From Haloarcula sp. H-GB4 (lineage in GTDB: Archaea > Halobacteriota > Halobacteria > Halobacteriales > Haloarculaceae): 64,000 nt of DNA. Made by a program: the position numbers and the translations under genes. Under the pieces are notes generated by a model, which saw only the letters and a list, made by a program, of their open reading frames with translations, was not told where the DNA came from and did not search any database. The stretch is from NCBI RefSeq assembly GCF_030848575.1, contig NZ_JAVDDX010000005.1:62001-126000 (forward strand), written 5' to 3'. Positions 2,820 to 35,070 of the stretch are shown piece by piece (position 1 is the first letter of the stretch; the number at the start of each line of letters is the position of its first letter).

Positions 2820-3215
2820 TTATTGTGTGAAGAACTCCACATCGAAGTCGGGCCCCAAGCTGATTATCAGAGACTTACTTGTCTTGCCAGTCGGATTCCA
2901 TTGAGTGGTGTGTGGATCGCTCTGTTGCTCCGTCTCGGTGGACTCGAACATGACTGTTACCTCATATTCACCGGGAGGAACGACATCGGTGAGCGTCGAA
3001 CGATAGGACGTTGTTGGTGGTTGTCTGGTTCGCGTCTGATAGACGGTTTGCGGGTCCGAAAGTAGTCCTCCCTCGCTCTGAATAGAGATCTCTTTCCACA
3101 CTTCCTGGCCGATCTGATTAGCAATCTGGATGTTGCCACTCTCAGACGAAGAGAACGAACACCCAGAAAGTGGAACAACTCCAGCAGCAGCGACGATAAC
3201 GGACCGCCGTTTCAT
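2820..3215 (-). CDS. Small lipoprotein, unknown function
   Basis: A 131-residue protein starting MKRRSVIVAAAGVVPLSGCS, a short signal peptide ending in a lipobox with Cys at residue 19. The rest is a single small domain, probably beta-sandwich-like judging by alternating polar and hydrophobic residues (for example EYEVTVMFES). No family is recognised. It sits upstream of 1868-2704 on the same strand, with about 115 bp between the two, so co-transcription is possible. Confidence 0.6.
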   Translation of the reverse strand: MKRRSVIVAAAGVVPLSGCSFSSSESGNIQIANQIGQEVWKEISIQSEGGLLSDPQTVYQTRTRQPPTTSYRSTLTDVVPPGEYEVTVMFESTETEQQSDPHTTQWNPTGKTSKSLIISLGPDFDVEFFTQ

Positions 3216-3429
3216 TACGAGCCGTTACTCGGCTGGGGCCTAAGTGAGTAATCGTTCCAACCCGTCTGTGACCGACTCGCACTACTCGCTCACAAGCCAG
3301 TGTAACCTCCGACCGACCACGCCAGACCCGCTACTCAACACAGCACTATCTACAATAATTGTCTCGGGAATATCGGCAAGAACTGTCCCGGTTCCAAGGA
3401 CTATGACGGAACAGCAGCAGGTCGGAGAC

Positions 3430-3924
3430 ATGCGATTCGAAGCCCTCCTGCTGGCGGTCCTCCTGATACTGGCCGGCTGTGGCGGATTCACCGATGGGAC
3501 GACAACTCTGACACCCGACGGGACGGAAGAAAGGCCGGTCCGGTACGGAGTCGCGGTCCAGAGCGACTACGCCGACGAGCGGACGTTCAGTATCCGCATC
3601 CGGGCCGACGAAACGACACTGCTGAACCGCTCCAAGCGGCTCGCAGCCGGCCAGCGGTGGCACGTCGTCAATCTGAGTTCCGAAAACTACGGCAAACGGG
3701 AGTACGAACTCCAGCTCCTCGTCGACGGTGAGGTCCGTTCGAGGTCCACGTTCAGCTTCCAGGAGTCAGGGAACGTTGAGCGACGGAGTGGCGCCACGCT
3801 GCTGGTACAGGGACCGTCGTCCGGTGAGACCCACACCTGCGGTGGAAACGTCACCTGCTATCGGGCTGTGGTCGAGAGGGCGGTCAGTACGAAATCGATG
3901 GGGAGTTCAAAAAAGAGCGAATGA
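3430..3924 (+). CDS. Small lipoprotein, unknown function
   Basis: The start at 3430 gives 164 residues beginning MRFEALLLAVLLILAGCGG, a Sec-type signal peptide with a strong lipobox (LAGC). Earlier in-frame starts at 3403 and 3244 put extra residues before the signal, so 3430 is favoured. The mature domain (about residues 40-130) looks like a beta-sandwich and ends in a Cys-containing segment (HTCGGNVTCYRAV). Unknown haloarchaeal lipoprotein. GC content is visibly higher than in the adjacent minus-strand lipoproteins, suggesting a different origin. Confidence 0.6.
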   Translation: MRFEALLLAVLLILAGCGGFTDGTTTLTPDGTEERPVRYGVAVQSDYADERTFSIRIRADETTLLNRSKRLAAGQRWHVVNLSSENYGKREYELQLLVDGEVRSRSTFSFQESGNVERRSGATLLVQGPSSGETHTCGGNVTCYRAVVERAVSTKSMGSSKKSE

Positions 3925-4047
3925 TGACGTTGTTCGACGATTCGGACGCTGTCGTCCCCTGATCAGAACGAGATGAACTCCTTGAGGCCGTGAAGTGACC
4001 AACGGAACGTAGCTGGCACATATACTAAAACGGTCAGTGCAGGCGGT

Positions 4048-4386
4048 TCATGACTCAGCTATGTCGCCGATAGCTCCAGCCATGCCAAGAAGCATGAGTC
4101 CATACCCAGCAAGTCCAGCGGGGATTGATGCTTGGAGAAGCAAATACCCAGTAAATGCGCCAAGGCCTCCGATAATAGCCCCTCGCTTTCTCGCCGACCG
4201 GGTGGTCTTGCCACGAGACAGAGCGAGCCACTGTTGTTTGTGTGCCAAAAGCATCGACGTTACTGCACCGTAGAGTGGAAGAAGCGAGACCATGATCAGG
4301 TGGTCCGATGTGGCGAACTCTGCTGCAAGAACTGTGATTACTACTCCAACAGTTAGTGAAATGGTGTATCGGAGGGCGGGACGCAT
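4048..4386 (-). CDS. Membrane protein with four predicted helices
   Basis: A 112-residue protein with hydrophobic segments at about residues 8-24, 30-47, 70-84 and 88-105, and a basic loop between the second and third (residues about 57-70). This suggests a compact four-helix membrane protein with the basic loop in the cytoplasm. No family is recognised. It lies just downstream of the truncated regulator fragment on the same strand (3-bp gap), so the regulator's break may have joined two unrelated pieces. Confidence 0.5.
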   Translation of the reverse strand: MRPALRYTISLTVGVVITVLAAEFATSDHLIMVSLLPLYGAVTSMLLAHKQQWLALSRGKTTRSARKRGAIIGGLGAFTGYLLLQASIPAGLAGYGLMLLGMAGAIGDIAES

Positions 4387-4389
4387 AGA

Positions 4390-4590
4390 CTAAATTACAA
4401 CTACCAGAAATAAGTACGGCACGAAATCTGAACACAAAATTCGCACGCTTACCGAGCAGTCGAAGCGGTCAGAGAGTTCCTGTTGGGTGTATTGCCGGCC
4501 GGGGTTGGCGTAGAGCAACTCAGCGGTGCGGAAGAAGGTCTCTGTCTTCGCTTCGAATTCCGCCCCGAACTCCGACGGCACCTGCGCCAT
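4390..4590 (-). pseudogene. Truncated winged-helix regulator, N-terminal part
   Basis: Residues 1-48 look like the start of a haloarchaeal helix-turn-helix protein: an acidic N-terminus, a helix with FFRTAELLYANPG, then QYTQQELSDRFDCS, where a DNA-binding wing would normally follow. After SVSV the frame runs into a short hydrophobic tail and stops at 66 residues. I read it as a gene broken by recombination; the hydrophobic tail is junction sequence. Its expected C-terminal part is not seen nearby. Confidence 0.45.
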
Positions 4591-4712
4591 GCCGCCCCGT
4601 TGGATAATTGGACAAATAAAGGGATAAACTATGGCTTGGCGACGATACTGGGGTCCCTTGATTGCTGTCGACCCCCAGTAGCGGCTCTATATCGCTGAGC
4701 GTTGCTGAATAG

Positions 4713-4862
4713 AGTCGGCGTGTTTTCAACTACTGCTATTACAGCAACTCCAGAGAGGCTATCCACAAGATTATTGCCGAGGAGGTTGGTGTCGCTCCTA
4801 CAACTGCTTGGTCTCATCTCCGGACAATCGAAGCACGAGTGTTTGAAACGCTAGTACGATAA
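4713..4862 (+). pseudogene. C-terminal remnant of a bacterio-opsin-activator-type HTH protein
   Basis: A plus-strand frame open from 4713 to a TAA at 4860-4862 encodes YYSNSREA, then IAEEVGVAPTTAWSHLRTIE. This is the HTH-10 pattern found at the C-terminus of haloarchaeal Bat-like regulators (YY or YF, then PR, then an alternating E-[LIV]-G-V-S/A helix and an H-L-R recognition helix). There is no start and a TAG bounds it upstream, so only the last ~49 codons of a regulator survive. Confidence 0.45.
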
Positions 4863-4876
4863 TTATCCTATTCACC

Positions 4877-5608
4877 TCAGCCAGCCAGTAGTGGCAAGGC
4901 GGTAGTGAGCGAAACGAAAATCCCGTGAACAAGCGCTGGAACGACGATATTCTCTGTTTTGGCATAGATCCAACCAGCAATCATGCCGAAGCCACCTTGG
5001 GCCATATAGAAGAGTAGGTCACCGAGAGCAAGGGCGGCGGGGTCAGCATGAGACATTCCAAAGAGTATACCACCAGCAGCGATAGCTGGCCAGAGACCGA
5101 TAACGTCTTCCAGTGACCGTTGGATGATACCATGGAAAATCACCTCCTCGGCTGGGCCGACAAGCACTAACAACGTCACTACCCGGGCGATTCGGACACG
5201 CTCTGGAAGTGTTAGTAGCATCGTGCGCTCCAGTCCAAGGACATTCTGAATCAGAACGAGAGAACCGACCAGCCAGACGAACGCCAGCACGACGCCCAGA
5301 AGGATATACGCCCACTCCCAATTCCTCGGACGGCGCACACCCATCCATTCGAGTGGGGATGAAATATCGAACACCCGCACGGCTAGCAGTGTGAGTACGA
5401 CAGCGAGGAATCCACGGAGGAGTTGGGCGCTCACGTCACGGACGACTGGGAACTCGCCAAGCAGGAGCGGTCCTGCCCTCGGGGAGTGACCGAGTAAGAT
5501 GGCAACGAACTCCAGATATATCCACACGGCAACGGTTATAATTACGGCCACGCCAAGACGAGAGCTGACAGTGCCACGGTTTTTTCGAGTGGACTGTGTG
5601 GTACTCAT
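4877..5608 (-). CDS. CPBP family intramembrane metalloprotease
   Basis: The start at 5608 gives 243 residues; the frame is open 27 codons further but those do not look like part of the protein. The CPBP (Abi, type II CAAX-protease-like) signature is clear: GPAEEVIFHG with the paired glutamates, a second motif with FGMSHADP, and a last helix with VPALVHGIFV supplying further conserved histidines. About seven hydrophobic segments. Family members cut or process prenylated or other membrane peptides. In archaea and bacteria they are often linked to peptide or bacteriocin immunity, but the target here cannot be inferred. It stands alone. A second CPBP gene lies at 12316-13293. Confidence 0.8.
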   Translation of the reverse strand: MSTTQSTRKNRGTVSSRLGVAVIITVAVWIYLEFVAILLGHSPRAGPLLLGEFPVVRDVSAQLLRGFLAVVLTLLAVRVFDISSPLEWMGVRRPRNWEWAYILLGVVLAFVWLVGSLVLIQNVLGLERTMLLTLPERVRIARVVTLLVLVGPAEEVIFHGIIQRSLEDVIGLWPAIAAGGILFGMSHADPAALALGDLLFYMAQGGFGMIAGWIYAKTENIVVPALVHGIFVSLTTALPLLAG

Positions 5609-5977
5609 TTCGTCGATTACTATCCACACAACTGACAAAACAGGAGCCGCAGCACTTCTGGGGGAGAAGCCAGACCGAATATTTAACAAGCACTATTGTG
5701 GGGACAGTAATACCGAGTACCGGGCAGGCGGGATGAATCGACTCAAACCGTGCACAGAGTCTCTATTCTTGAAATGTTGCGTGGGTGTTTATTGAATACG
5801 TGTCTGGAGTAAGACACAATGCACCTCAAACTGTCACAGGATAAATCTCAATGGTGTGTATAATAATGCAGTTGTACGATGCGGTAAAACACCTCCTCTT
5901 TCTGCTCCCATTTCACCCGTAAGTTCACACACCTACCGAGCAATAAATGACGGTCAGAAAACGGAGTGGGAGAAGTG
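5609..5977. other. Gene-free stretch upstream of the CPBP gene
   Basis: AT-richer sequence between the CPBP start and the palindromic repeat. No coding frame looks protein-like on either strand. It presumably holds the CPBP promoter, but I cannot point to a convincing TATA box at a fixed position. Confidence 0.4.
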
Positions 5978-6020
5978 GCTAACCAGCACTCATGGCATTA
6001 CCCACCATTTGTTGGTTAGC
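5978..6020. repeat. Palindromic repeat, copy 2
   Basis: Inverted arms GCTAACCAGCA (5978-5988) and TGTTGGTTAGC (6010-6020), 11 bp with one mismatch and 21 bp between them. The right flank GCTTTATCCACC resembles that of copy 1. The repeat sits at the truncated end of the gene fragment 6021-6196, as if it marks the breakpoint. Confidence 0.7.
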
Positions 6021-6196
6021 GCTTTATCCACCAATACCGTCGCTACCACGTGCTGGTACTCTGCTTGCGACGGCGTCGGGTGCAACGTCAACCCAGCAAG
6101 TGCCAACTCGCTAAGAACCTCCAGCGGCACACCCTCTGAACCACATAACACCGCGTCGAGCGTCCAAGCGTCGTACTGAGTTCGATACGGAAGCAT
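6021..6196 (-). pseudogene. Fragment of a relative of the 16724-16987 gene
   Basis: The minus-strand frame contains YDAWTLDAVLCGSEGVPLEV and LTLHPTPSQAEYQHVVAT. These match, with changes, the C-terminal half of the protein at 16724-16987 (HDAWTLDAVLRDTEGVPPEV and LTLQPMPSQAEHQHVVAT). The N-terminal half is missing, and at the other end the frame runs into the palindromic repeat. It is a truncated relative left by recombination. It overlaps the first codons of the following plus-strand gene. Confidence 0.6.
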
Positions 6197-11719: not shown

Positions 11720-11761
11720 TCATGCTTTATTTTCCGAGTATACCCCCACTCTCACCACTGC

Positions 11762-11800
11762 ACGTTGGTTAGCTAGTCCCCACTCCGGAAGTACAAGCTC
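11762..11800. repeat. Half copy of the palindromic repeat
   Basis: Only the right arm (GTTGGTTAGCTAG) is present, followed by CCCCACTCCGGAAGTACAAG. The same CCGGAAGT(A/C/T)-AAG block follows the palindromes at 13465-13508 and 16325-16368, so this is a truncated member of that family. Confidence 0.6.
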
Positions 11801-11828
11801 ATTTTAATAGCCAGTCTCCCGTATTCGG

Positions 11829-12086
11829 TTGTATATAGCCGCAACAGAGGCCCAGACGGTCGAATTGCATGATGGGACTGAACTCGCCGTCCAGTACCTT
11901 GGTGCAACCGGCGACGACACTGCGGAGTTCGAAGTCGAACCCAAGGCCGAGGACGATACGCGCCGCTGGCGGCTAGAAATCCAACGCACAGGCGGCTACG
12001 AGATCGTCGAGGCGTGGGAGCACGGCGTTGCAGCTGACCTCGACGCCCCTGACTGGGTGCACGAACTCGTCGACCGGGCGGTCTGA
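11829..12086 (+). CDS. Small acidic protein, unknown function
   Basis: An 85-residue, very acidic protein (TAEFEVEPKAEDDTRRWRLE) with a beta-like first half and a helical tail ending APDWVHELVDRAV. The composition is typically haloarchaeal and unlike random frame. The listed start is an ATA/ATG-poor region; the sequence before residue 5 is open, so the N-terminus could differ by a few residues. No family is recognised. It lies next to repeat debris, so it may itself be a remnant. Confidence 0.4.
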   Translation: MYIAATEAQTVELHDGTELAVQYLGATGDDTAEFEVEPKAEDDTRRWRLEIQRTGGYEIVEAWEHGVAADLDAPDWVHELVDRAV

Positions 12087-12315
12087 GGTGGCTGTTCGAA
12101 ATTGCTTATCACGCTCTGGCCAGTCGTTGCCAATCTGGGTTCTTTGGGCAGTCGTAGTGATGAAACGCCTGTTCAGTGCATTTGCGAGTTGAGTATGTTG
12201 TGTGGGTAGTGGCAGAAAGGTTGGTGCACACTCACCGTTGGGACTAGACGAACGCCGTGTCGAATTGTAACAATGAGTCAAAATCATTAATGCATAGACA
12301 TGAAATTGGGTGAAT

Positions 12316-13293
12316 ATGTCAGAAAATATTTCTGTGAGTTCAGGGATAACAGACCTCATCCATCGACTTCTGTATGGCTCAGAGGATACGCGGCTACGGG
12401 CCACTTGGCGGGTCGTTATTCCGGTATTCGCCGCTCTTGTAACCTATCTGGGCGGCCGGATCGTAATGAGGATAGCATTCCAATCAGTTATTGGGAACGT
12501 TTCTAGAACGAGTGTCGTCCTTCAGACGCTGACTCCGCTCATCCTAACAGCTACACTCATGATTGCAAGCGGACTCGTTGCACTCGCCGTCGCCTCACGG
12601 CTTGATAACCGTCCACTCACCAGTTATGGATTCGCTTGGTCTACACAGTGGGTAGTGGACTTCCTCGTCGGAACAATAATTGGCGTAAGCGCTTTGATCT
12701 GTACAGTTCTCTATCAGGTAGCGAGAGGATATGCAACTCTTCGCACAGACCTGACTGGCGTTGGAGTTGATTCGATACCCCTCGGAGTTCTTGTCGTCGT
12801 TGCGCTGCTGGTGTTCTCTCTCTCAAATAACGTATTCGAAGAGATTGTATTTAGGACAATATTCATTCAGAATGCCGCAGAGGGTCTCGTAAAACGGTCT
12901 GTAGGGAAAAGAACAGCAGTCATGCTTGCACTCGTTGCAAGCACTCCGATATTCGGGATTTGGCATTTATTAGGTGGTGGATTGTCTGCCGTGCTCACTA
13001 GCCTTGTCGGAGGTTTTCTATTCGGAACAGCCTACATATTGAGCGGACAACTGTCGTTGCCAATTGGCGTCCACTTCGGAGGGGTGGCACTCTTAATACT
13101 GACTCAACAGCCCTTCTCGCAGAATCCAGAGTTGACGCTCCCCTCGCTTTTCGTTGTAGAAATTGCAAATATATCGCTTGCGCAATCCATCGAGATATGG
13201 GTTGTGCGGGCAGCAGTCGGTATCGTCCTTATTTGTGCGTGGGTGTATTATTCCGCTGGTGAAATTGCGATTGCTGAGGAGGTACGTCCGTAG
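12316..13293 (+). CDS. CPBP family intramembrane metalloprotease
   Basis: A 325-residue protein from the ATG at 12316 (a GTG at 12310 is the alternative). Eight or so hydrophobic segments are visible. The CPBP motifs are SNNVFEEIVFRTIF (paired glutamates and Arg), IFGIWHLLGGG and LPIGVHFGGV, supplying the conserved histidines. It is longer than the CPBP protein at 4877-5608 and only distantly similar to it. Family members are membrane proteases of unknown substrate in most archaea. It is a single gene; an AT-rich stretch at about 12275-12300 upstream could serve as promoter. Confidence 0.8.
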   Translation: MSENISVSSGITDLIHRLLYGSEDTRLRATWRVVIPVFAALVTYLGGRIVMRIAFQSVIGNVSRTSVVLQTLTPLILTATLMIASGLVALAVASRLDNRPLTSYGFAWSTQWVVDFLVGTIIGVSALICTVLYQVARGYATLRTDLTGVGVDSIPLGVLVVVALLVFSLSNNVFEEIVFRTIFIQNAAEGLVKRSVGKRTAVMLALVASTPIFGIWHLLGGGLSAVLTSLVGGFLFGTAYILSGQLSLPIGVHFGGVALLILTQQPFSQNPELTLPSLFVVEIANISLAQSIEIWVVRAAVGIVLICAWVYYSAGEIAIAEEVRP

Positions 13294-13464
13294 TCGGTCA
13301 CACGACAAACGTCTATGTTAGTGCACAGTTGCTGTGCCTGTTCTCTGTCTTGACAATCGCTGTTACAGCAGTTTTCAATATATCTCTCCAGCGCTCTGAC
13401 CGGTTGCTTTAGCGGAAATAAATCGCAGAGTAGACACCCTGTACTGATCGAATAACCGGTTCTG

Positions 13465-13508
13465 ACTAACCAACAGTTGGCCGGTGCTGCCACCGCGTGT
13501 TAGTTAGC
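13465..13508. repeat. Palindromic repeat, copy 3
   Basis: Arms ACTAACCAACA (13465-13475) and TGTTAGTTAGC (13498-13508) with one or two mismatches. It is followed directly by a block with CCCCCGGAAGTCTAAGG and GGGTTTACATACCAGTC (about 13517-13550), which recurs at 16541-16564. The rest of the gap 13294-13717 holds only the hairpin at 13587-13607. Confidence 0.75.
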
Positions 13509-13586
13509 GATCTCTCCCCCGGAAGTCTAAGGGGGGTTTACATACCAGTCGCTCGTCAGCTACAAACACATACTCGCGCCATCATG

Positions 13587-13607
13587 GGGCCTGTTTGGGG
13601 CAGGCCC
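13587..13607. repeat. Stem-loop in the repeat-associated block, copy A
   Basis: GGGCCTG at 13587-13593 pairs with CAGGCCC at 13601-13607 around a seven-base loop. It lies about 40 bp after the GGAAGTCTAAGG block. The equivalent hairpin at 16600-16622 has the same stem length with a paired base change. Confidence 0.6.
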
Positions 13608-13717
13608 AGTCATGACTCTGCGGTCAGTACACACTATTCAGCGACCGACTGTTTCAAACAGTGCTGAATTTGAAGATACGGAGTTCCACAGAGCCAGAAA
13701 AGAGTGGTTTGTGGGTC

Positions 13718-14860
13718 TCAACACTCCACAGAAGAGTCGACGTACTCTGCCATCTGTCTGATAGCCATGATAACAGCGATGTCCGGGGCTCCGCCTGCTT
13801 CTTCATATATTTGATTTGTCAACTCCCGTGCCTTCTCAGCGTCCGTCGTCGGTCTTTGACCACGACGTGCTACAGACCCCATCTCTCCCCTTGGGAGATC
13901 GGGAGACTTCGCCGGCACCTGGAAATCTGGAATTCCATCGATATTTCTTATTTCGCCGTCAACCTCCATCTCATGAATAATCTTGTCCCGGCGGCGGAAT
14001 TCACTCATCCGACTGGCTAACCGGTCAAGATACTCCTCGCTGCAGGAATTGTGAAGCACAACATTGTCTGCATTATGAAACTGCAGAAGATTCACTTCAT
14101 CCACAGTTTTCTGAGACTTCAACAATACCTGCCTACGAGAGTTGGACTCGATATCGTAAACTGTCGGGTCGTAGAGCAGAAGAACTCGTTTCGGATCTAT
14201 CGGGCAGTATAGTTGAAGCCCATGTTCAGCAAACCCAGAGACAACTCTATCCGATTTGAATTGTGGATTGTCTGTGATAATTGGTGTATCCGAGATAACG
14301 AATTCTTTATCGGCGACGTTTCGAAGCATAACCGGCTCTAAATCCTCAAGTATTTGGTATCCGAAAATTCCTAAAACAATCATTTCGAGATGGATACCCA
14401 GCGTCGTCGCATCAACCAGAGTATCCTCCTTCTCCTCCGGCGTCAATTCGGAGGTCCATTCAATGTGATCATCGTATCTGTCGCTGACTAGGTCGTCTCT
14501 AACCCCTTCTCGCAGTAGTTTGTCTCCTTCGTTAATGCTTTTTCGCGTGGACTTCGAGCGGGTTCTCTGAGTAGTGATGAACGACAACAGAAGCAGACGT
14601 TCTTGGGGAGTTAAATCTGGAAGATAACCACCGTTTCGAAGCGTCTCTAACGGATCTTTATGCAGGCCTTCTAGTTTGTGGAGTTCTCTTTCGACGTGAG
14701 TAGGATTGCCGTACAGGTAGTCCTCGGAACACACCTTGCTGATGGAGGTTTTGACCTGAATTGCTCCCTCCTCGATGTGGTAGACGCTGACTTTCTCGTT
14801 TTCGGCCCATCCACGGAGGAAATGCTGTGGAACGTAGTGTTGGTTCTTGTACTCTGGCAT
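13718..14860 (-). CDS. DUF4238 domain protein
   Basis: A 380-residue protein opening MPEYKNQHYVPQHFLRGW, the N-terminal hallmark of DUF4238 (K-x-QHYVP-x-x-x-LR-x-F/W). Later it contains LLLSFITTQRTRSK and EFVISDTPIITDNP, which match the helical and D-x-P-blocks of the family. The function of DUF4238 proteins is unknown to me; they are often found as lone genes in accessory regions of bacteria and archaea. The start is set by the conserved N-terminus. The gene lies between two sets of repeat blocks (13465-13607 and 16325-16622), suggesting that the segment was moved as a unit. Confidence 0.8.
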   Translation of the reverse strand: MPEYKNQHYVPQHFLRGWAENEKVSVYHIEEGAIQVKTSISKVCSEDYLYGNPTHVERELHKLEGLHKDPLETLRNGGYLPDLTPQERLLLLSFITTQRTRSKSTRKSINEGDKLLREGVRDDLVSDRYDDHIEWTSELTPEEKEDTLVDATTLGIHLEMIVLGIFGYQILEDLEPVMLRNVADKEFVISDTPIITDNPQFKSDRVVSGFAEHGLQLYCPIDPKRVLLLYDPTVYDIESNSRRQVLLKSQKTVDEVNLLQFHNADNVVLHNSCSEEYLDRLASRMSEFRRRDKIIHEMEVDGEIRNIDGIPDFQVPAKSPDLPRGEMGSVARRGQRPTTDAEKARELTNQIYEEAGGAPDIAVIMAIRQMAEYVDSSVEC

Positions 14861-15352
14861 TTAATTGGCCGTTGTATTTTCGGTAGTGACTCCAGCGTCC
14901 TCTCTGCCTAGGTTACGTGGCCCTTCAATATGGTCTTGGCCATAATCTGTTTTAACGGTTCGTTCAGAAACAAGGATAGAAGCGCTTTGTTGAAATCCTA
15001 CGTTCCGTGTGCAGACACACTAAACAGCGTTTCTAAGCTAAGAGCGGGGGAAGAATGTGACTTGTGGCGGTGTGCTTCAGGCTTCCGAAGTCATTGAGCT
15101 GTTCGGAGACAGTCATGGACGCATTCGATGTGAGGATTTTGTAGAAAATGAATGGCAGTTGTTCTGGAAATGGTGGCAGAAGGTGATGAAAGAGTTGCTA
15201 TCGAACACGAGGGTGAACTCGCACACATCGGAGGGTACGTTACTATTTGAATAATCCACACTCGCCCGCCTAAACATCTAATTTCAGAACCTCTCTGAAT
15301 AGAGAACCCATATTACAAAATACTGTTAAGTCCACTTCTGCAAGTCGCTATT
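14861..15352. other. Gene-free stretch
   Basis: No convincing gene is seen. A 65-codon plus-strand frame at 15057-15254 exists but lacks haloarchaeal composition (few acidic residues, many Cys and Trp), so I do not call it. The promoters of the flanking, diverging genes must lie here. Confidence 0.4.
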
Positions 15353-16096
15353 GTGCCAACTCTCCGCGAATACAAGGACGACCCGGGATACTACATTTAC
15401 GCTCGCCCACCGGAAGTAGGTAATATCACCTACGGGATCGACCCGGCTGCATATCCCATTTTCAGCGAGCTTGAGTACGAACACGGCAGCCAAGTTTCGT
15501 GGCGGGTAATCGGCGCTTTGAAAGCCTCAGAGTTGATCGAAACCGGCGACAGTGGCAGCACAGGTGATACACTGAACGCCAGCCAAGTCGAGGGAAAGCC
15601 TTTAGAAGAGGATTTCGGCCAGTTTTACGAGCTCCTACTGGACCGATTCACATTTTCTGTTGACGAGCAAGATTCAATCGCATCGAAACTCGGTATCGAC
15701 CCAACCGATGCGGAATCTCACTTCACTGACCGATTAAAGAGAGTCCTACCAGAACTCAAGACAACACATATCCTCAATGCAGAGCATCCCGATGAAACAG
15801 CCATAGCCGGGTTTATACCGGAATTTTTCGAGCCTCATACTGATGCTGAGTACGATCTGGCAATCGTAGTTGAGGACCACCGCAGGAAGGTCCCAGACCC
15901 CACCGGGATTGAACACATCGTGTATCAGCAGTCTACTGGGTATCATGTCGAAGTCGGGACTTCATCTGAAATAACAACTGAGATTCGTTCTGAGGGTATC
16001 CAGCATGTCTCCAAGTTTGACCCACTTATTCAAGATGAACTCGGGTTCGACGACCCAGCCCCAGTCGAGACGAGCATCACCTTCTCTCAGGGGTAA
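15353..16096 (+). CDS. Unknown protein, two-part, acidic
   Basis: A 247-residue acidic protein from a GTG at 15353 (VPTLREYKDDPGYYIYARPP). No membrane segment, no nucleotide-binding or metal motif. A Gly/Ser/Asp-rich linker at about residues 60-78 separates an N-terminal beta-type part from a mostly helical middle and a C-terminal alpha/beta part (YDLAIVVEDHRRKVPDP). Family not recognised. It is a single gene on the plus strand within the repeat-bounded segment that also holds the DUF4238 gene. Confidence 0.55.
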   Translation: MPTLREYKDDPGYYIYARPPEVGNITYGIDPAAYPIFSELEYEHGSQVSWRVIGALKASELIETGDSGSTGDTLNASQVEGKPLEEDFGQFYELLLDRFTFSVDEQDSIASKLGIDPTDAESHFTDRLKRVLPELKTTHILNAEHPDETAIAGFIPEFFEPHTDAEYDLAIVVEDHRRKVPDPTGIEHIVYQQSTGYHVEVGTSSEITTEIRSEGIQHVSKFDPLIQDELGFDDPAPVETSITFSQG

Positions 16097-16324
16097 GCGG
16101 TAAGCACTCTCCCGGTGCTGAACGAGTCCGTCCATTGGTATCTATCTTGTAGCGAGCAACCATGAGCAAAATTCTGGCTCCAGCTGGTATATAGAAGTTA
16201 GTGCTACTCGGGACTCGCACGCACCGTGGTTTGATATATCAGTCGGCAGGCCTACTGACCAGCCAATTCACCGCAATAGTTCTGAAATCAGCCGTCCTGG
16301 GGACTGTTCTACGACACCCTCATG

Positions 16325-16368
16325 ACTAACCAACACTGGACCACTTCTGCCACCGAGTGTTGGTTAGT
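16325..16368. repeat. Palindromic repeat, copy 4 (best copy)
   Basis: Perfect 13-bp arms ACTAACCAACACT (16325-16337) and AGTGTTGGTTAGT (16356-16368) with an 18-bp spacer. It is followed by CCACCCCGGAAGTACAAG, the block shared with copy 3 and the half copy at 11762. Confidence 0.8.
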
Positions 16369-16540
16369 GAATCACCACCCCGGAAGTACAAGCGATGTTT
16401 CTCACCTATTCTGACACCACCTGAATATGGCATCAAAAGCGACTCACATAGCCGGCCTGCACATCGGGGCCATCTCAATATTCAAGATCAAGACGTGTCA
16501 AATACACTTATTCCTGTCATACTCGCTCCCTTCCGGAAGT

Positions 16541-16622
16541 CCAAGGGGGGTTTACATACCAGTCACTCATCAGCTATGAATACACACTAGCGCCGTCGTG
16601 GGACCTGCCACTAACAGGTCCC
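16541..16622. repeat. Repeat-associated block with stem-loop, copy B
   Basis: Begins GGAAGTCCAAGG then GGGTTTACATACCAGTC, matching about 13521-13550, and ends in a hairpin: GGGACCTG (16600-16607) with CAGGTCCC (16615-16622). It lacks a palindrome of its own; the nearest is at 16325-16368. The remainder of the gap 16097-16723 shows nothing I can support. Confidence 0.65.
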
Positions 16623-16723
16623 GGCGCGGGGTCGCGGTCAGTCAGTTTGAACGTAGGAACCACCGCAACCCATGCAAAGAACGCACGCAACTCAGCAAAA
16701 AAGTAGAGGTATCGCTACCCAGC

Positions 16724-16987
16724 TCAGGCCGTCGCAACGACGTGTTGATGTTCGGCCTGCGAGGGCATCGGCTGGAGCGTCAGGTCCGCAAGCGCCAGCT
16801 CCCGAAGCACTTCCGGCGGGACGCCCTCGGTGTCTCGAAGCACGGCATCAAGCGTCCACGCGTCGTGTTCCGAGCACACCGGCGGCATCGTTTCGACCAG
16901 CACGATCGGGACGGTCTCGCGGAGCGCACGGGCGGCGCGTTTCACGCGCTTGCGGTTCTCAACCGTACAGCGGACGGTCTCGCTCAT
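16724..16987 (-). CDS. Small haloarchaeal protein, unknown function
   Basis: An 87-residue protein beginning MSETVRCTVENRKRVKRAAR, a basic helical N-terminus. A domain with CSEHDAWTLDAVLRDTEGVP and a helical C-terminus (LRELALADLTLQP) follow. The start overlaps the stop of the upstream gene 16984-17313 (ATGA), so the two are translationally coupled. A truncated relative exists at 6021-6196, which shows that the pair has moved within this replicon. I recognise no family; this kind of pair is typical of haloarchaeal plasmid regions. Confidence 0.55.
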   Translation of the reverse strand: MSETVRCTVENRKRVKRAARALRETVPIVLVETMPPVCSEHDAWTLDAVLRDTEGVPPEVLRELALADLTLQPMPSQAEHQHVVATA

Positions 16988-17313
16988 GCCTCAACACCTC
17001 GAACGAGATCGTCGACGAGCGAGCCGCCGACGTGTGGGCCGACGGACCAGCCGCGTTCGTCCTTCGTGTATTCACACCACTGTGCGAGTGTTTCAAACGG
17101 CGTCTCGGACAGTTCGACCTTCTCGGCGTTGTCGTCGGTTGCGACAACGGCCACGGCGAACTCGTAGCTGTCCCAGTAGTGGGCTGCGCCTTCACCGTCG
17201 ACGCCCAAGAAGAGCGGGCGACCCTGGGTGAGCAGTTCGCGGGCGGTGCGTTCCTCTGGATGCGCGTCAGTCGTGCCGACAGATTTACTAGTCGGCGATG
17301 CAGACTTACTCAT
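16984..17313 (-). CDS. Small haloarchaeal protein coupled to 16724-16987
   Basis: From the ATG at 17313 the protein has 109 residues (MSKSASPTSKSVG...). The frame is open to 17382, but the first 23 codons look non-coding. The core contains LLTQGRPLFLGVDGEGAAHY, a tight beta-hairpin-like region, then VAVVATDDNAEKVELSETPF and a helical tail with LAQWCEYTKDERGW. No family recognised. Its last four bases overlap the start of the next gene. Confidence 0.55.
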   Translation of the reverse strand: MSKSASPTSKSVGTTDAHPEERTARELLTQGRPLFLGVDGEGAAHYWDSYEFAVAVVATDDNAEKVELSETPFETLAQWCEYTKDERGWSVGPHVGGSLVDDLVRGVEA

Positions 17314-17476
17314 GGTTCTCGACGGAACCGACGCGCCTACGCTGCTGATGACAGCGTGGGCAACTCGCGTTCTCGAAGACACGAAATCGCCCAGCGGCGC
17401 GTCTGTTCCTATCTAAACGGTTGCGCCTCCGCAACAATAAAACTATTGTCTAGGCGCAATGATTGGGTAACAGAAG

Positions 17477-17719
17477 ATGAGTACCAAAGGCCCCGATCCC
17501 AAGGTCAGCGACTCCGAATTACTTCAGGCCGTTATGGATACTAACGAACCGTTTGCCACTGCCAAGCAGATTGCAGAACAGGTTGGACTCTCGTCTTGGA
17601 GGGTTCGGCAGCGGATGAGTAAGTTAGCAGAATCTGGCGATATTCAGAAGTCTCAGCTCGGAGATGGCCCATATATTTACTGGCGCGACGGGTCGTTCAA
17701 TTCCGAATCGGAGACCTGA
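17477..17719 (+). CDS. Winged-helix transcription regulator
   Basis: An 80-residue protein made of little more than one winged helix: SDSELLQAVMD, then TAKQIAEQVGLSSWRVRQRM as helix-turn-helix and IYWRDGSF as wing. Small haloarchaeal regulators of this type bind DNA as dimers. Its 3' end overlaps by 43 bases the convergent gene 17677-17952, which encodes a similar domain; the two may be antagonistic or simply a decayed duplication turned around. AT-rich sequence with AAAACTATTG about 30 bp upstream may be its promoter. Confidence 0.65.
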   Translation: MSTKGPDPKVSDSELLQAVMDTNEPFATAKQIAEQVGLSSWRVRQRMSKLAESGDIQKSQLGDGPYIYWRDGSFNSESET

Positions 17720-24891: not shown

Positions 24892-26100
24892 TCAGAGATT
24901 GTCCAGCGTCATTTGTTTCATTGGGCCGCCAATATCGGTGTGCCCATCATTGAACTGCTCAAGATTGAGCGAGCCGGATCGCAGAGTATTTATTCTCTCT
25001 CTGTCATTTGAATCCAACTCAAAGCCGTAGACAGCTTCTTTAAGATAATACCCGAGTGACTCGCTCAAGTATGGGGGAACCGCGTTGCCTATCTGTTGTC
25101 GTACAGAGACCAGACCACCGTCGAAGCGGTACCAGTCGGGGAACGTTTGGAGTCGAGCCCCTTCGCGTGGTGTGAGCCCACGATCTTGGAACGGATGGAT
25201 ACAGCGAGCGCTCGAGGGCTTCGACATATTTGAGGTGATGGCAACTGCGGGCTCCCGAGAGTCCAGCCTGGAGTAGGAGTTATGATATCCTGAGGAAGGA
25301 GCCAACTCGTCTGGAATCTCACTCCGGTTACCGCCATCGGAGATGTGCGAAATCATCTCAACCATATCATCGGTGTGGTTGGCTGCCTGATGGAGTGTCA
25401 ACTCTTCATTCCCGTTCCGAAGGTCTTGCTGGAGAACCGTTTCCGGATCTGAATCGTACGCTGTCGCTTCTTTTCCAGCGCCTACGTGCGGAAGATCGCC
25501 GATCCCGTCCATCACCCCGGGAGTCTCAACGGGATCAATCTCGAACCCATCGATTGAGTGAGCTGGAGCGCTACCCTTGAATGCGAGTACGATTAGACGT
25601 CGGCGGTGCTGCGGGACCCCGAAGTCCGATGCAGTCACGACGTGTGGTGTCACCTCGTAACCGATGTTGTTGAACGATTCCTTAACAGCGTCTAGGAATC
25701 GACCGTCGTCGGTGTTCTCCATTCCACGGACGTTCTCGAAAAGCGCTGCCTCGGGTTGAAGTTCGTTTACCCACTGGATGAAATAAGTGAAGAGATGGTT
25801 CCGATCATCGGAGCCATCGGGACTAACGACTTCTGAGAATCCCTGGCATGGCGGCCCACCGGCAACCAAGTCAACCGTGTCATGTCCCACGAGGTCTGTA
25901 ATCTCAGAAGTATCAACATCGCGGATATCCATCGTCATCTCTTCGGCCTTGACTTCGTCGCGGTTGCGTGCGAACGTTGACCGCGCATCGTCGTCGACTT
26001 CGACAGCGTGCACGAGGTCGAATCCGGCTTTCTCAAGGCCCAGCGACAGCCCACCAGCACCGGCAAACAAATCGACGTAACTCAGTCCCTGAGAGCTCAT
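24892..26100 (-). CDS. DNA (cytosine-5) methyltransferase
   Basis: A 402-residue protein with the m5C methyltransferase motifs in order: YVDLFAGAGGLSLGLEKAGF (SAM binding, residue 8 on), DLVAGGPPCQGFSEV (catalytic Cys, about residue 87), FENVRGMEN, and QIGNAVPPYL near the C-terminus. The target-recognition region lies between about residues 190 and 310. It transfers a methyl group from SAM to C5 of cytosine in a specific site. It starts 173 bp from the divergent gene 26274-27428, a predicted restriction enzyme, so the pair looks like a type II restriction-modification system. Confidence 0.9.
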   Translation of the reverse strand: MSSQGLSYVDLFAGAGGLSLGLEKAGFDLVHAVEVDDDARSTFARNRDEVKAEEMTMDIRDVDTSEITDLVGHDTVDLVAGGPPCQGFSEVVSPDGSDDRNHLFTYFIQWVNELQPEAALFENVRGMENTDDGRFLDAVKESFNNIGYEVTPHVVTASDFGVPQHRRRLIVLAFKGSAPAHSIDGFEIDPVETPGVMDGIGDLPHVGAGKEATAYDSDPETVLQQDLRNGNEELTLHQAANHTDDMVEMISHISDGGNRSEIPDELAPSSGYHNSYSRLDSREPAVAITSNMSKPSSARCIHPFQDRGLTPREGARLQTFPDWYRFDGGLVSVRQQIGNAVPPYLSESLGYYLKEAVYGFELDSNDRERINTLRSGSLNLEQFNDGHTDIGGPMKQMTLDNL

Positions 26101-34045: not shown

Positions 34046-34777
34046 TTAGAGCTCTTGATAGAGGTAGTATGGGCCAAAAGCCAGTGGAAAGATAACTATT
34101 GAAGCAAGCTCACCATTGGAGAGAGATGCCTCGGGTACTGCCTTTGTATACACATACGCTGCGATGGGAATGAGCACCCAACCAACCCACATAATCGTGC
34201 TTGAAAACGCATACTCGGTAAATATCCCAGTGTAGAGTAGAAGCGTACCGAGCCCTATGCCTGCCAAGTACGAAGCTCCCCTCGTCAACCGTACCCGAGT
34301 AATGACATCGTCGCAGAATTCGGCTGGGGAGAGAACTTCTCCTTGGCTTTGTGTTGCATGCGTTTGTACGGAATCAGCCGCTTGGTTGTTTTGAACCATT
34401 TCGACAAGATCCTCTCCATCAACCAATTCCACGTCAAGCTCTTCACCTCGATCTCTTGCCGGGTCTGTGAACGATCCGGTCGTTACAATCGCGACGATAT
34501 CGGCATTTTCCTGCTTTTTCAGCGCATAATATTGTTGCACATCAGCCGTTCCAACCCGGTTATGAGAACTGTATCTCTTCGCCTGTATGACCATCTTCTG
34601 TGAGACGGGATCATCTCTTTCAGCGATGACATCGACCCCACGATCATTGCTTTGCTGGGTAACAGTTGTTTCCCACCCATCCTTTTCCCAGAGATCTGCT
34701 ACAAAATATTCAAACTTTTTTGGATCCATCGCCAGCAAGTTCTCTTGTATAACTGGTTCAGAAACACCCATTATCAT
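34046..34777 (-). CDS. Mrr-type restriction endonuclease with membrane anchor
   Basis: A 243-residue protein (MIMGVSEPVI...; a second Met follows two codons later). The Mrr catalytic domain (about residues 10-125) has FEYFVADLWEKDGWE, then DRGVDVIAERDDP and VIQAKRYSS: acidic residues and the Q-A-K of a PD-(D/E)xK site. After a polar linker (about residues 125-150) two hydrophobic helices (about 170-190 and 195-215, with a third short one near 225-240) suggest membrane anchoring. Mrr domains cut methylated DNA. It stands convergent to the CARF gene with 17 bp between stops and is AT-richer than its surroundings. Confidence 0.8.
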   Translation of the reverse strand: MIMGVSEPVIQENLLAMDPKKFEYFVADLWEKDGWETTVTQQSNDRGVDVIAERDDPVSQKMVIQAKRYSSHNRVGTADVQQYYALKKQENADIVAIVTTGSFTDPARDRGEELDVELVDGEDLVEMVQNNQAADSVQTHATQSQGEVLSPAEFCDDVITRVRLTRGASYLAGIGLGTLLLYTGIFTEYAFSSTIMWVGWVLIPIAAYVYTKAVPEASLSNGELASIVIFPLAFGPYYLYQEL

Positions 34778-34845: not shown

Positions 34846-35070
34846 TTGCGTAGGTTCGTCTCCTGTGTCTCTGTAATCGAGACCATCTTAGCTGCTGATT
34901 ATGTCATAGTCGTTATCTCACACGAGTCTGGAGAAAAGCTTAGAGAACGGGGTCGCGTCGGCGAATATAACGACCGAAACGGTCTAATCTACCTATATCC
35001 CGAGGTTATAGATATTGATAACCGAGACAAAATTATACGGTACCATGATATGTATGTCTATATTGAATGA
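34846..35070 (+). CDS. Doubtful short ORF overlapping the drmD-type gene
   Basis: Seventy-four codons from a TTG; no ATG or GTG occurs until near the end. The protein is mixed in composition (ADYVIVVISHESGEKLRE, LIYLYPEVIDIDNRD) and its stop overlaps the ATG at 35067 by four bases. The overlap supports translation; the poor start argues against it. A remnant of a gene end is equally likely. Confidence 0.3.
   Translation: MRRFVSCVSVIETILAADYVIVVISHESGEKLRERGRVGEYNDRNGLIYLYPEVIDIDNRDKIIRYHDMYVYIE

Follow-up and report, generated by a model that had tools for sequence, protein, structure and literature searches.

The stretch of DNA analyzed here, called the window in what follows, comprises 64,000 nucleotides of a contig (C5) from Haloarcula sp. 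H-GB4 and contains two similar blocks, block 1 at 13512-13593 and block 2 at 16526-16607, that align without gaps over 82 nt with 83% identity. An initial annotation of this DNA had pointed out the resemblance, which is real, but the second block begins some 15 nt further to the left than had been given. With up to 3 mismatches permitted, the window contains two instances of the core GGAAGTNNAAGGGGGGTTTACATACCAG, as compared to 0.00 expected, and there is further similarity preceding block 1, where 13463-13510 matches 16323-16370 over 48 nt (81%), with both stretches including a 42-bp palindrome (13466-13507, one mismatch in the right arm, and 16326-16367, exact). A partial third copy of the block is located at 11747-11822. 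Two cargo genes lie between blocks 1 and 2, one on the minus strand coding for a DUF4238 protein (13718-14860; PF14022, E 1.3e-41) and one on the plus strand coding for 247 amino acids (aa; 15353-16096) with no Pfam match above cut-off, and block 2 is followed by two minus-strand backbone genes, c2 (16724-16987, 87 aa) and c1 (16984-17382, 132 aa), to neither of which the Pfam scan assigns a function. Open reading frames (ORFs) were obtained with a simple custom caller and start positions are often uncertain.

Comparisons with related genomes show that both blocks represent a module located between genes on Haloarcula plasmids. As a rule it is found next to the 3′ end of the c2/c1 operon, on the border of the backbone. 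A full copy, read in the plus orientation, has the order 42-bp palindrome, CCGGAAGTNCAAG, TATA-like box, conserved leader, hairpin, second helix and minus-strand T-run. Block 1 carries the upstream promoter motif as CCGGAAGTCTAAG (13519-13531, plus strand) and the TATA-like box TTTACATA of a putative promoter (13537-13544, plus), followed by a hairpin at 13587-13607 (plus). In the case of block 2 the conserved part starts with an upstream extension common to other loci (16246-16325, plus), and the palindrome is followed by the motif CCGGAAGTACAAG with a weak TATA-like stretch thereafter (16380-16392, plus), by CCGGAAGTCCAAG (16533-16545, plus) and by a second putative promoter box TTTACATA (16551-16558, plus). 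Folding and alignment then place a hairpin at 16590-16627, built from GCGCC, a GTCGT bulge, GGGACCTG paired with CAGGTCCC, and GGCGC, and a second helix at 16629-16671, for which folding of this copy is better on the minus strand, and beyond which a conserved stretch with a minus-strand T-run (16672-16723, minus) is the probable 3′ end of the c1-c2 operon.

The module was found by BLAST in 9 of 98 genomes, including that of the window, all from the same genus, and a covariance model detects it in 10 of 32 genomes of the genus, with up to 7 copies per genome; within a set of 146 genomes of the family, the other 21 genera yielded none. Twelve plasmid records match, all from Haloarcula and some of them two versions of one plasmid; the named plasmids pNG100, pHH126, pHsi540 and pNG500 were inspected. 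The phage records searched gave no match and an exact-core scan of genome contigs added no relative. On the right most copies border on the end of c2, a gene of the minus strand, with c1 beyond it, and in pNG100, pHsi540 and pNG500 an orc1/cdc6 gene is located within ∼10 kb on the c2/c1 side. At G020:C2:857287-857384 (L087) there is a weak hairpin relative, scoring 37 bits and apparently lacking the second helix, 3′ of the stop of an upstream reading frame.

Insight into the first part of the module is provided by a small gene, c15 (11829-12086, plus, 85 aa), that is preceded in the window by the promoter motif with the TATA-like sequence TTTTAATA (11785-11809, plus), ending ∼20 bp before the called start. 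Haloarchaeal promoters have a TATA element approximately 26 nt upstream of the transcription start. The motif, together with a different TATA-like box, precedes c15 in six copies, and in 5 of these 6 a start codon is found 30-31 nt past the motif, which is the spacing expected of a leaderless transcript. With the geometry of c15, transcription would start near 13567 for block 1 and near 16581 for block 2, and the first part of the module is accordingly a putative promoter whose transcript would begin just before the hairpin.

The palindrome is considerably more widespread than the module. Its consensus is YTAACCAACA-N18-22-TGTTGGTTAR, with arms of 9-10 bp that are about three helical turns apart, and the exact form CTAACCAAC-N-GTTGGTTAG is present in 32 of 392 genomes of the order and in 12 of 95 genera, while the reversed control gave 0. 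Among 100 distinct near-exact copies 52 are 42 bp in length and 31 are 41 bp, with nearly invariant arms and variable spacers. With the outer base left free palindromes were found in 24 of 32 genomes, up to 27 sites per genome; this set consisted of 28 genomes without the exact CTAACC form and of G004, G126, G067 and G009, chosen after the protein search described below. Midpoints fall inside a called ORF in 6 of 96 distinct copies (90 are outside) in sequence that is 69% coding. The genome of the window has the palindrome at ten places, on C4, C5, C6, C7 and C9; the two further sites in the window itself are at 1754-1795 (TTAACC type, exact) and 5979-6019 (one mismatch). A scan of a genome collection returned at least 119 stretches, with 77 haloarchaeal names, 1 uncultured archaeon and 2 bacterial names among the 80 that were listed. 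There are 61 stretches in viral contigs. Literature searches for the arm GTTGGTTAG, for AACCAACA with haloarch, for TTAACCAAC and for related topics found nothing on the palindrome among the papers listed, which does not establish its absence from print. One further arrangement includes a PCNA-like gene (below cut-off), a palindrome, a gene of 85-87 aa, a palindrome, a gene of 211 aa and an ArdC-like gene, and is found at G000:C6 (L130) 3000-6173, G006:C59 (L136) and G000:C9 (L134); the two palindromes are ∼360 bp apart in L130 and L136 and one is listed in L134.

A candidate partner for the palindrome is a family of uncharacterized proteins of 107-136 aa (alignment A4) that end in a YYYxQWREG-like sheet and match no Pfam family above cut-off. 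When loci were chosen by the protein a palindrome (at most 2 mismatches per arm) was found near the start of the gene in 25 of 30, and palindromes lie ahead of 26 of 32 YYYxQWREG ORFs as opposed to 21 of 972 others, with the proviso that the loci were partly chosen for palindromes. Relative to the ATG the site is 3 nt upstream for 12 of the 16 longer family members and 13-16 nt upstream for all 9 short ones, and the outer base of the arm tracks the protein subtype, T/A in 9/9 short members and C/G in 14/16 of the others. Genomes with the protein (18) contain 2-27 palindromes, mean 10.6, and those without it (14) contain 0-5, mean 0.8 (Mann-Whitney p 2e-6). ParA is encoded in the flanks of 7 of the 30 protein loci and Orc1 in 12, with one or the other homologue at 18, and in pNG500 of Haloarcula marismortui parA, a small gene, the palindrome and the gene for the YYYxQWREG protein WP_011222289.1 follow each other in a row. 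A match was obtained for 173 plasmid records, whose ten commonest names are haloarchaeal. An AlphaFold model of the protein (pLDDT 74.6) consists of three helices and a three-stranded sheet, the latter C-terminal and possibly similar to the arm-binding domains of integrases; the leading rows from VIA-align are on the helical part of the model. In G067, from another family of the order, there are five palindromes with AT-rich spacers and no YYYxQWREG match at E 1e-6, and a different partner is possible there. In G031:C3 (L058), at 186-1333, a YYYxQWREG gene copy is interrupted by an internal stop and has the module and a fragment of orc1 as neighbors, an indication that these genes decay on some plasmids.

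The initial annotation had also placed the blocks on either side of accessory genes, and they do bound exchangeable accessory DNA, the module loci having conserved genes to the right and varied cargo to the left. The region 11745-13592 of the window is 94.7% identical to G003:C12:14444-16295 over 1858 bp, with divergence setting in at the end of the left arm of the hairpin, and the G003:C12 module, unlike that of the window, continues through an uninterrupted hairpin region. Homology of the window to L050, L057, L060 and L061 stops at 13592-13594 as well, and to L058 earlier, at 13564, so that five of six loci share the stop that marks the junction with cargo. The right arm of the block 1 hairpin, in contrast to the left arm that belongs to the module, is part of a separate right-half piece (13600-13634, plus) that recurs with 94% identity at G031:C3:2420-2454 in other surroundings. 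In G031 the order is the c15 unit, the left half, the right-half piece and a hairpin with the second helix, with other DNA in between. Block 1 is a junction in which the left half of one module is joined to the right half of another, and the two arms of its hairpin seem to have separate histories.

Taken together, the results are best accounted for by a joint explanation that we favor tentatively, considering it slightly more apt to fail than to hold as a whole. The palindrome would be the binding site of a small protein of the YYYxQWREG family, here the association is what is observed and binding is proposed; in Haloarcula it would also head promoter-like modules at cargo borders, and the repeated modules would let accessory genes be exchanged through recombination between them, where the junction is observed and the mechanism proposed. 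We infer that the palindrome-protein pair serves in maintaining replicons or in controlling their maintenance, possibly also in trans. A stronger version, that palindrome and YYYxQWREG protein form an undescribed replicon-maintenance system (centromere-like or copy-control) of haloarchaeal plasmids and islands, with many dispersed intergenic sites, ties to Orc1/Cdc6 and ParA and action in trans, that in addition controls the promoters at Haloarcula cargo borders, is doubtful at present. The absence of the protein gene from the contig of the window lowers confidence in both. A single haloarchaeal cell can maintain many large plasmids, and to our knowledge little has been learned as to how it distinguishes, partitions and regulates them. 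If correct, the site-protein pair in many haloarchaeal genomes would offer a direct handle on all three.

A number of observations weigh against this explanation. The single protein match in the genome of the window is on C9 and is of the short TTAACC type, contig C5 has no such gene, and three of the four palindromes in the window have the CTAACC form, unlike that of the C9 protein. Five of the 30 protein loci are without a palindrome, the 14 protein-less genomes still hold 0-5 palindromes, with 5 in one of them, and copies are related by descent so that the counts are not independent. The structural model is of low confidence (pTM 0.38) and has no convincing match in the Protein Data Bank (PDB), with nothing at E ≤ 0.001 from Foldseek and at most Z 5.6 from VIA-align. 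Some module copies have no visible promoter ahead of the hairpin. Finally, only 15 of 138 palindromes in the genome collection are at a YYYxQWREG gene and 26 of the 128 with both neighbors lie between convergent genes, a position that makes a promoter function improbable; this argues for dispersed sites rather than promoters alone, and we doubt for the same reason that the palindrome serves solely as a promoter operator.

Alternative explanations center on the hairpin. The two hairpins of the initial annotation are present in the sequence and in the folds, with the stems GGGCCTG/CAGGCCC (13587-13593 with 13601-13607) and GGGACCTG/CAGGTCCC (16600-16607 with 16615-16622). The difference between them had been read as a compensatory change that reflects selection, as in a structured RNA or a recombinase hairpin. 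Selection maintaining this stem is not supported by the additional copies. The pair in question is A-T in 11 of 25 copies, G-C in 4 and G-T in 2, while 6 copies have no pair there and 2 a gap (A/G vs T/C, Fisher p 0.15). Copies that break the stem, an observation named beforehand as refuting, are thus among the 25, and covariation in the whole initial 22-pair structure is not above that of shuffles (400 of 500 as high). Because the arms of block 1 appear to be of separate origin the ‘compensated’ stem compares unlike things, and apparent compensation between two copies can be a hybrid junction, a caution for hairpin claims of this sort. What speaks for a role in recombination is the location of breaks at the hairpin, and for a structured RNA a double change in a different helix, the second one, which had gone unremarked (16629-16637 with 16663-16671). 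There pair 53-86 is G-C in 12 of 25 copies, A-T in 10, G-T in 2 and other in 1. Alignment A1 was constructed without near-identical copies (L067, L072) and truncated ones, A2 omits three A1 copies (block 1, L049 and one of L046) and A3 adds three truncated copies. For the initial structure, with 22 pairs in 25 copies, the covariation score was 0.061 against a shuffled mean of 0.066, within the range of shuffles on the plus strand; once pair 53-86 was added, after the alignment had been viewed, the plus strand ranks higher than every shuffle both for covariation and for the share of paired cells (88.5%). For the minus strand (28 rows) 92.7% of cells are paired, more than in any of 500 shuffles, and a single shuffle of the 500 attains its covariation score. 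Such data would fit a structured RNA, either a small RNA of the plus strand with its start near 16581 or, on the minus strand, the 3′ untranslated part of the c1-c2 mRNA, as would the mean column identities of 0.90-0.92 in the stem arms vs 0.83 in the bulge and 0.68 and 0.77 in the loops, and the better folding of the block 2 copy on the minus strand (z -3.5 vs -2.0). We nevertheless regard covariation in the second helix as weak evidence, since related copies can give such values and two related groups of copies could be the source of the G-C/A-T change. The difference between strands is largely due to one position, C-A in 22 of 25 copies and G-U if read on the minus strand, two of five minus-strand measures fall within shuffles (49 and 327 of 500), single copies fold unevenly, with z -0.2 for one of them, and RNAalifold returns just 7 pairs, none from the hairpin or the second helix. 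There is no Rfam match at the gathering score in three sources, and lax limits produce one weak match outside the blocks. A structured RNA seems unlikely.

It is no more probable that the hairpin is the site of a recombinase, with circular one-module cassettes inserting at the hairpin of a resident module to leave left/right hybrids on both sides, as in integrons or phage integration. The layout of the window fits a single insertion, reading left half plus right-half piece, cargo and then a complete module, different DNA is found between the same two halves in G031, and many module break points are at or within the hairpin. A set of 12 break points lies within 60 of 196 positions around the hairpin, with 1 of 20000 random sets as clustered; however, these points were picked by hand after the data had been seen, and the left edges at module positions 56-63, the right edges at 85-102 and those at 225-264 were left out, among them edges at the CCGGAAGT motif and right-hand edges. 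The tyrosine recombinase family PF00589 has no match on C5 and 10 on C1-C4 (serine recombinases were not searched), and homologous recombination between repeats of 80-280 bp yields the same layouts. Ordinary homologous recombination suffices for what is observed; the hairpin may have a role in recombination. That the module is the remnant of a small non-autonomous transposon, similar to a miniature inverted-repeat transposable element (MITE), is very unlikely; copies are dispersed, and in several unlike surroundings their left edge falls at or close to ACTCGCGCC, but most have one orientation relative to the gene 3′ end, and inspection of the aligned rows, by eye only, revealed neither terminal inverted repeats nor target duplications. 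More improbable still is a rolling-circle replication origin, with the palindrome bound by Rep and the hairpin nicked. The order of palindrome and then hairpin is reported for the Rep-Arvir origins of SNJ2-like haloviruses, in which a conserved hairpin sits downstream of rep (PMC13107129). In the module, by comparison, hairpin loops vary, there are up to 7 copies per genome, and no scanned window protein matches a Rep family above cut-off (Pfam, which was used without a Rep-Arvir profile), the winged-helix gene at 17477 having a RepL match below cut-off only. In addition, pNG100, pHsi540 and pNG500 carry orc1/cdc6.

The cargo itself is diverse. Among ten cargo proteins each, Pfam and PADLOC searches point to Cas8b, helicases (one with PDC-S28 matches), a histidine kinase, a PQQ protein and a KAP NTPase, and a reading of the cargo as defense cassettes was dropped as these matches have no common theme. 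Elsewhere in the window, over 24892-45700, are found C-5 methylases at 24892, 38594 and 39939, an Mrr-type nuclease at 34046 and SNF2/ResIII helicases at 35067 and 42761. At L046:11909, L050:5390 and L065/L068/L072 the 3′ element of the module also follows a gene that we read as PIN-like, although it matches no family, and whose partner is RelB-like with a score below cut-off, as well as a small gene matching a PHROG named toxin, and several toxin-antitoxin-like pairs may share this 3′ border.

How do these elements compare with known systems? The imperfect hairpins at gene 3′ ends that bound exchangeable genes are reminiscent of integron attC sites and gene cassettes, from which they differ by the promoter-like part of the module and by a contig, C5, devoid of PF00589 matches, for which an integrase from C1-C4 could act in trans. 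The attC core ends in RYYYAAC and GTTRRRY and forms a single long hairpin. Judged by eye the arms CTAACCAAC/GTTGGTTAG do not fit this core, and the module has two separate hairpins. As an inverted repeat near orc1/cdc6 the palindrome is similar to haloarchaeal Orc1/Cdc6 origin recognition boxes, which in published form carry a G-string (PMC3528665, PMC3936714); arms and spacer of the palindrome are without a fixed G run, so this identity was set aside, and AACCAAC and GTTGGTT are absent from the main texts of the two papers. Rep-Arvir origins likewise have a palindrome and then a hairpin, but the loops of the module are not conserved and no Rep family match above cut-off lies beside it. A site 3 or 13-16 nt before a start codon is what might be expected of the autoregulated operator of a small archaeal DNA-binding regulator, but here most palindromes are not at a YYYxQWREG gene and the spacer is long and nearly fixed. 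Plasmid centromeres of the parS/ParB type provide a further comparison. They are unlike the present system in that the arms here are 9-10 bp with a variable spacer of ∼20-22 bp, the protein belongs to no Pfam family above cut-off, there are as many as 27 sites per genome, and the contig of the window has sites and no gene; the expectation that sites reside on the replicon with their cognate protein holds per genome and not for C5, for which the gene is on C9. What they share with the palindromes is dispersal of the sites, their enrichment where the candidate protein is present, and a protein gene that itself has a site, sometimes near parA.

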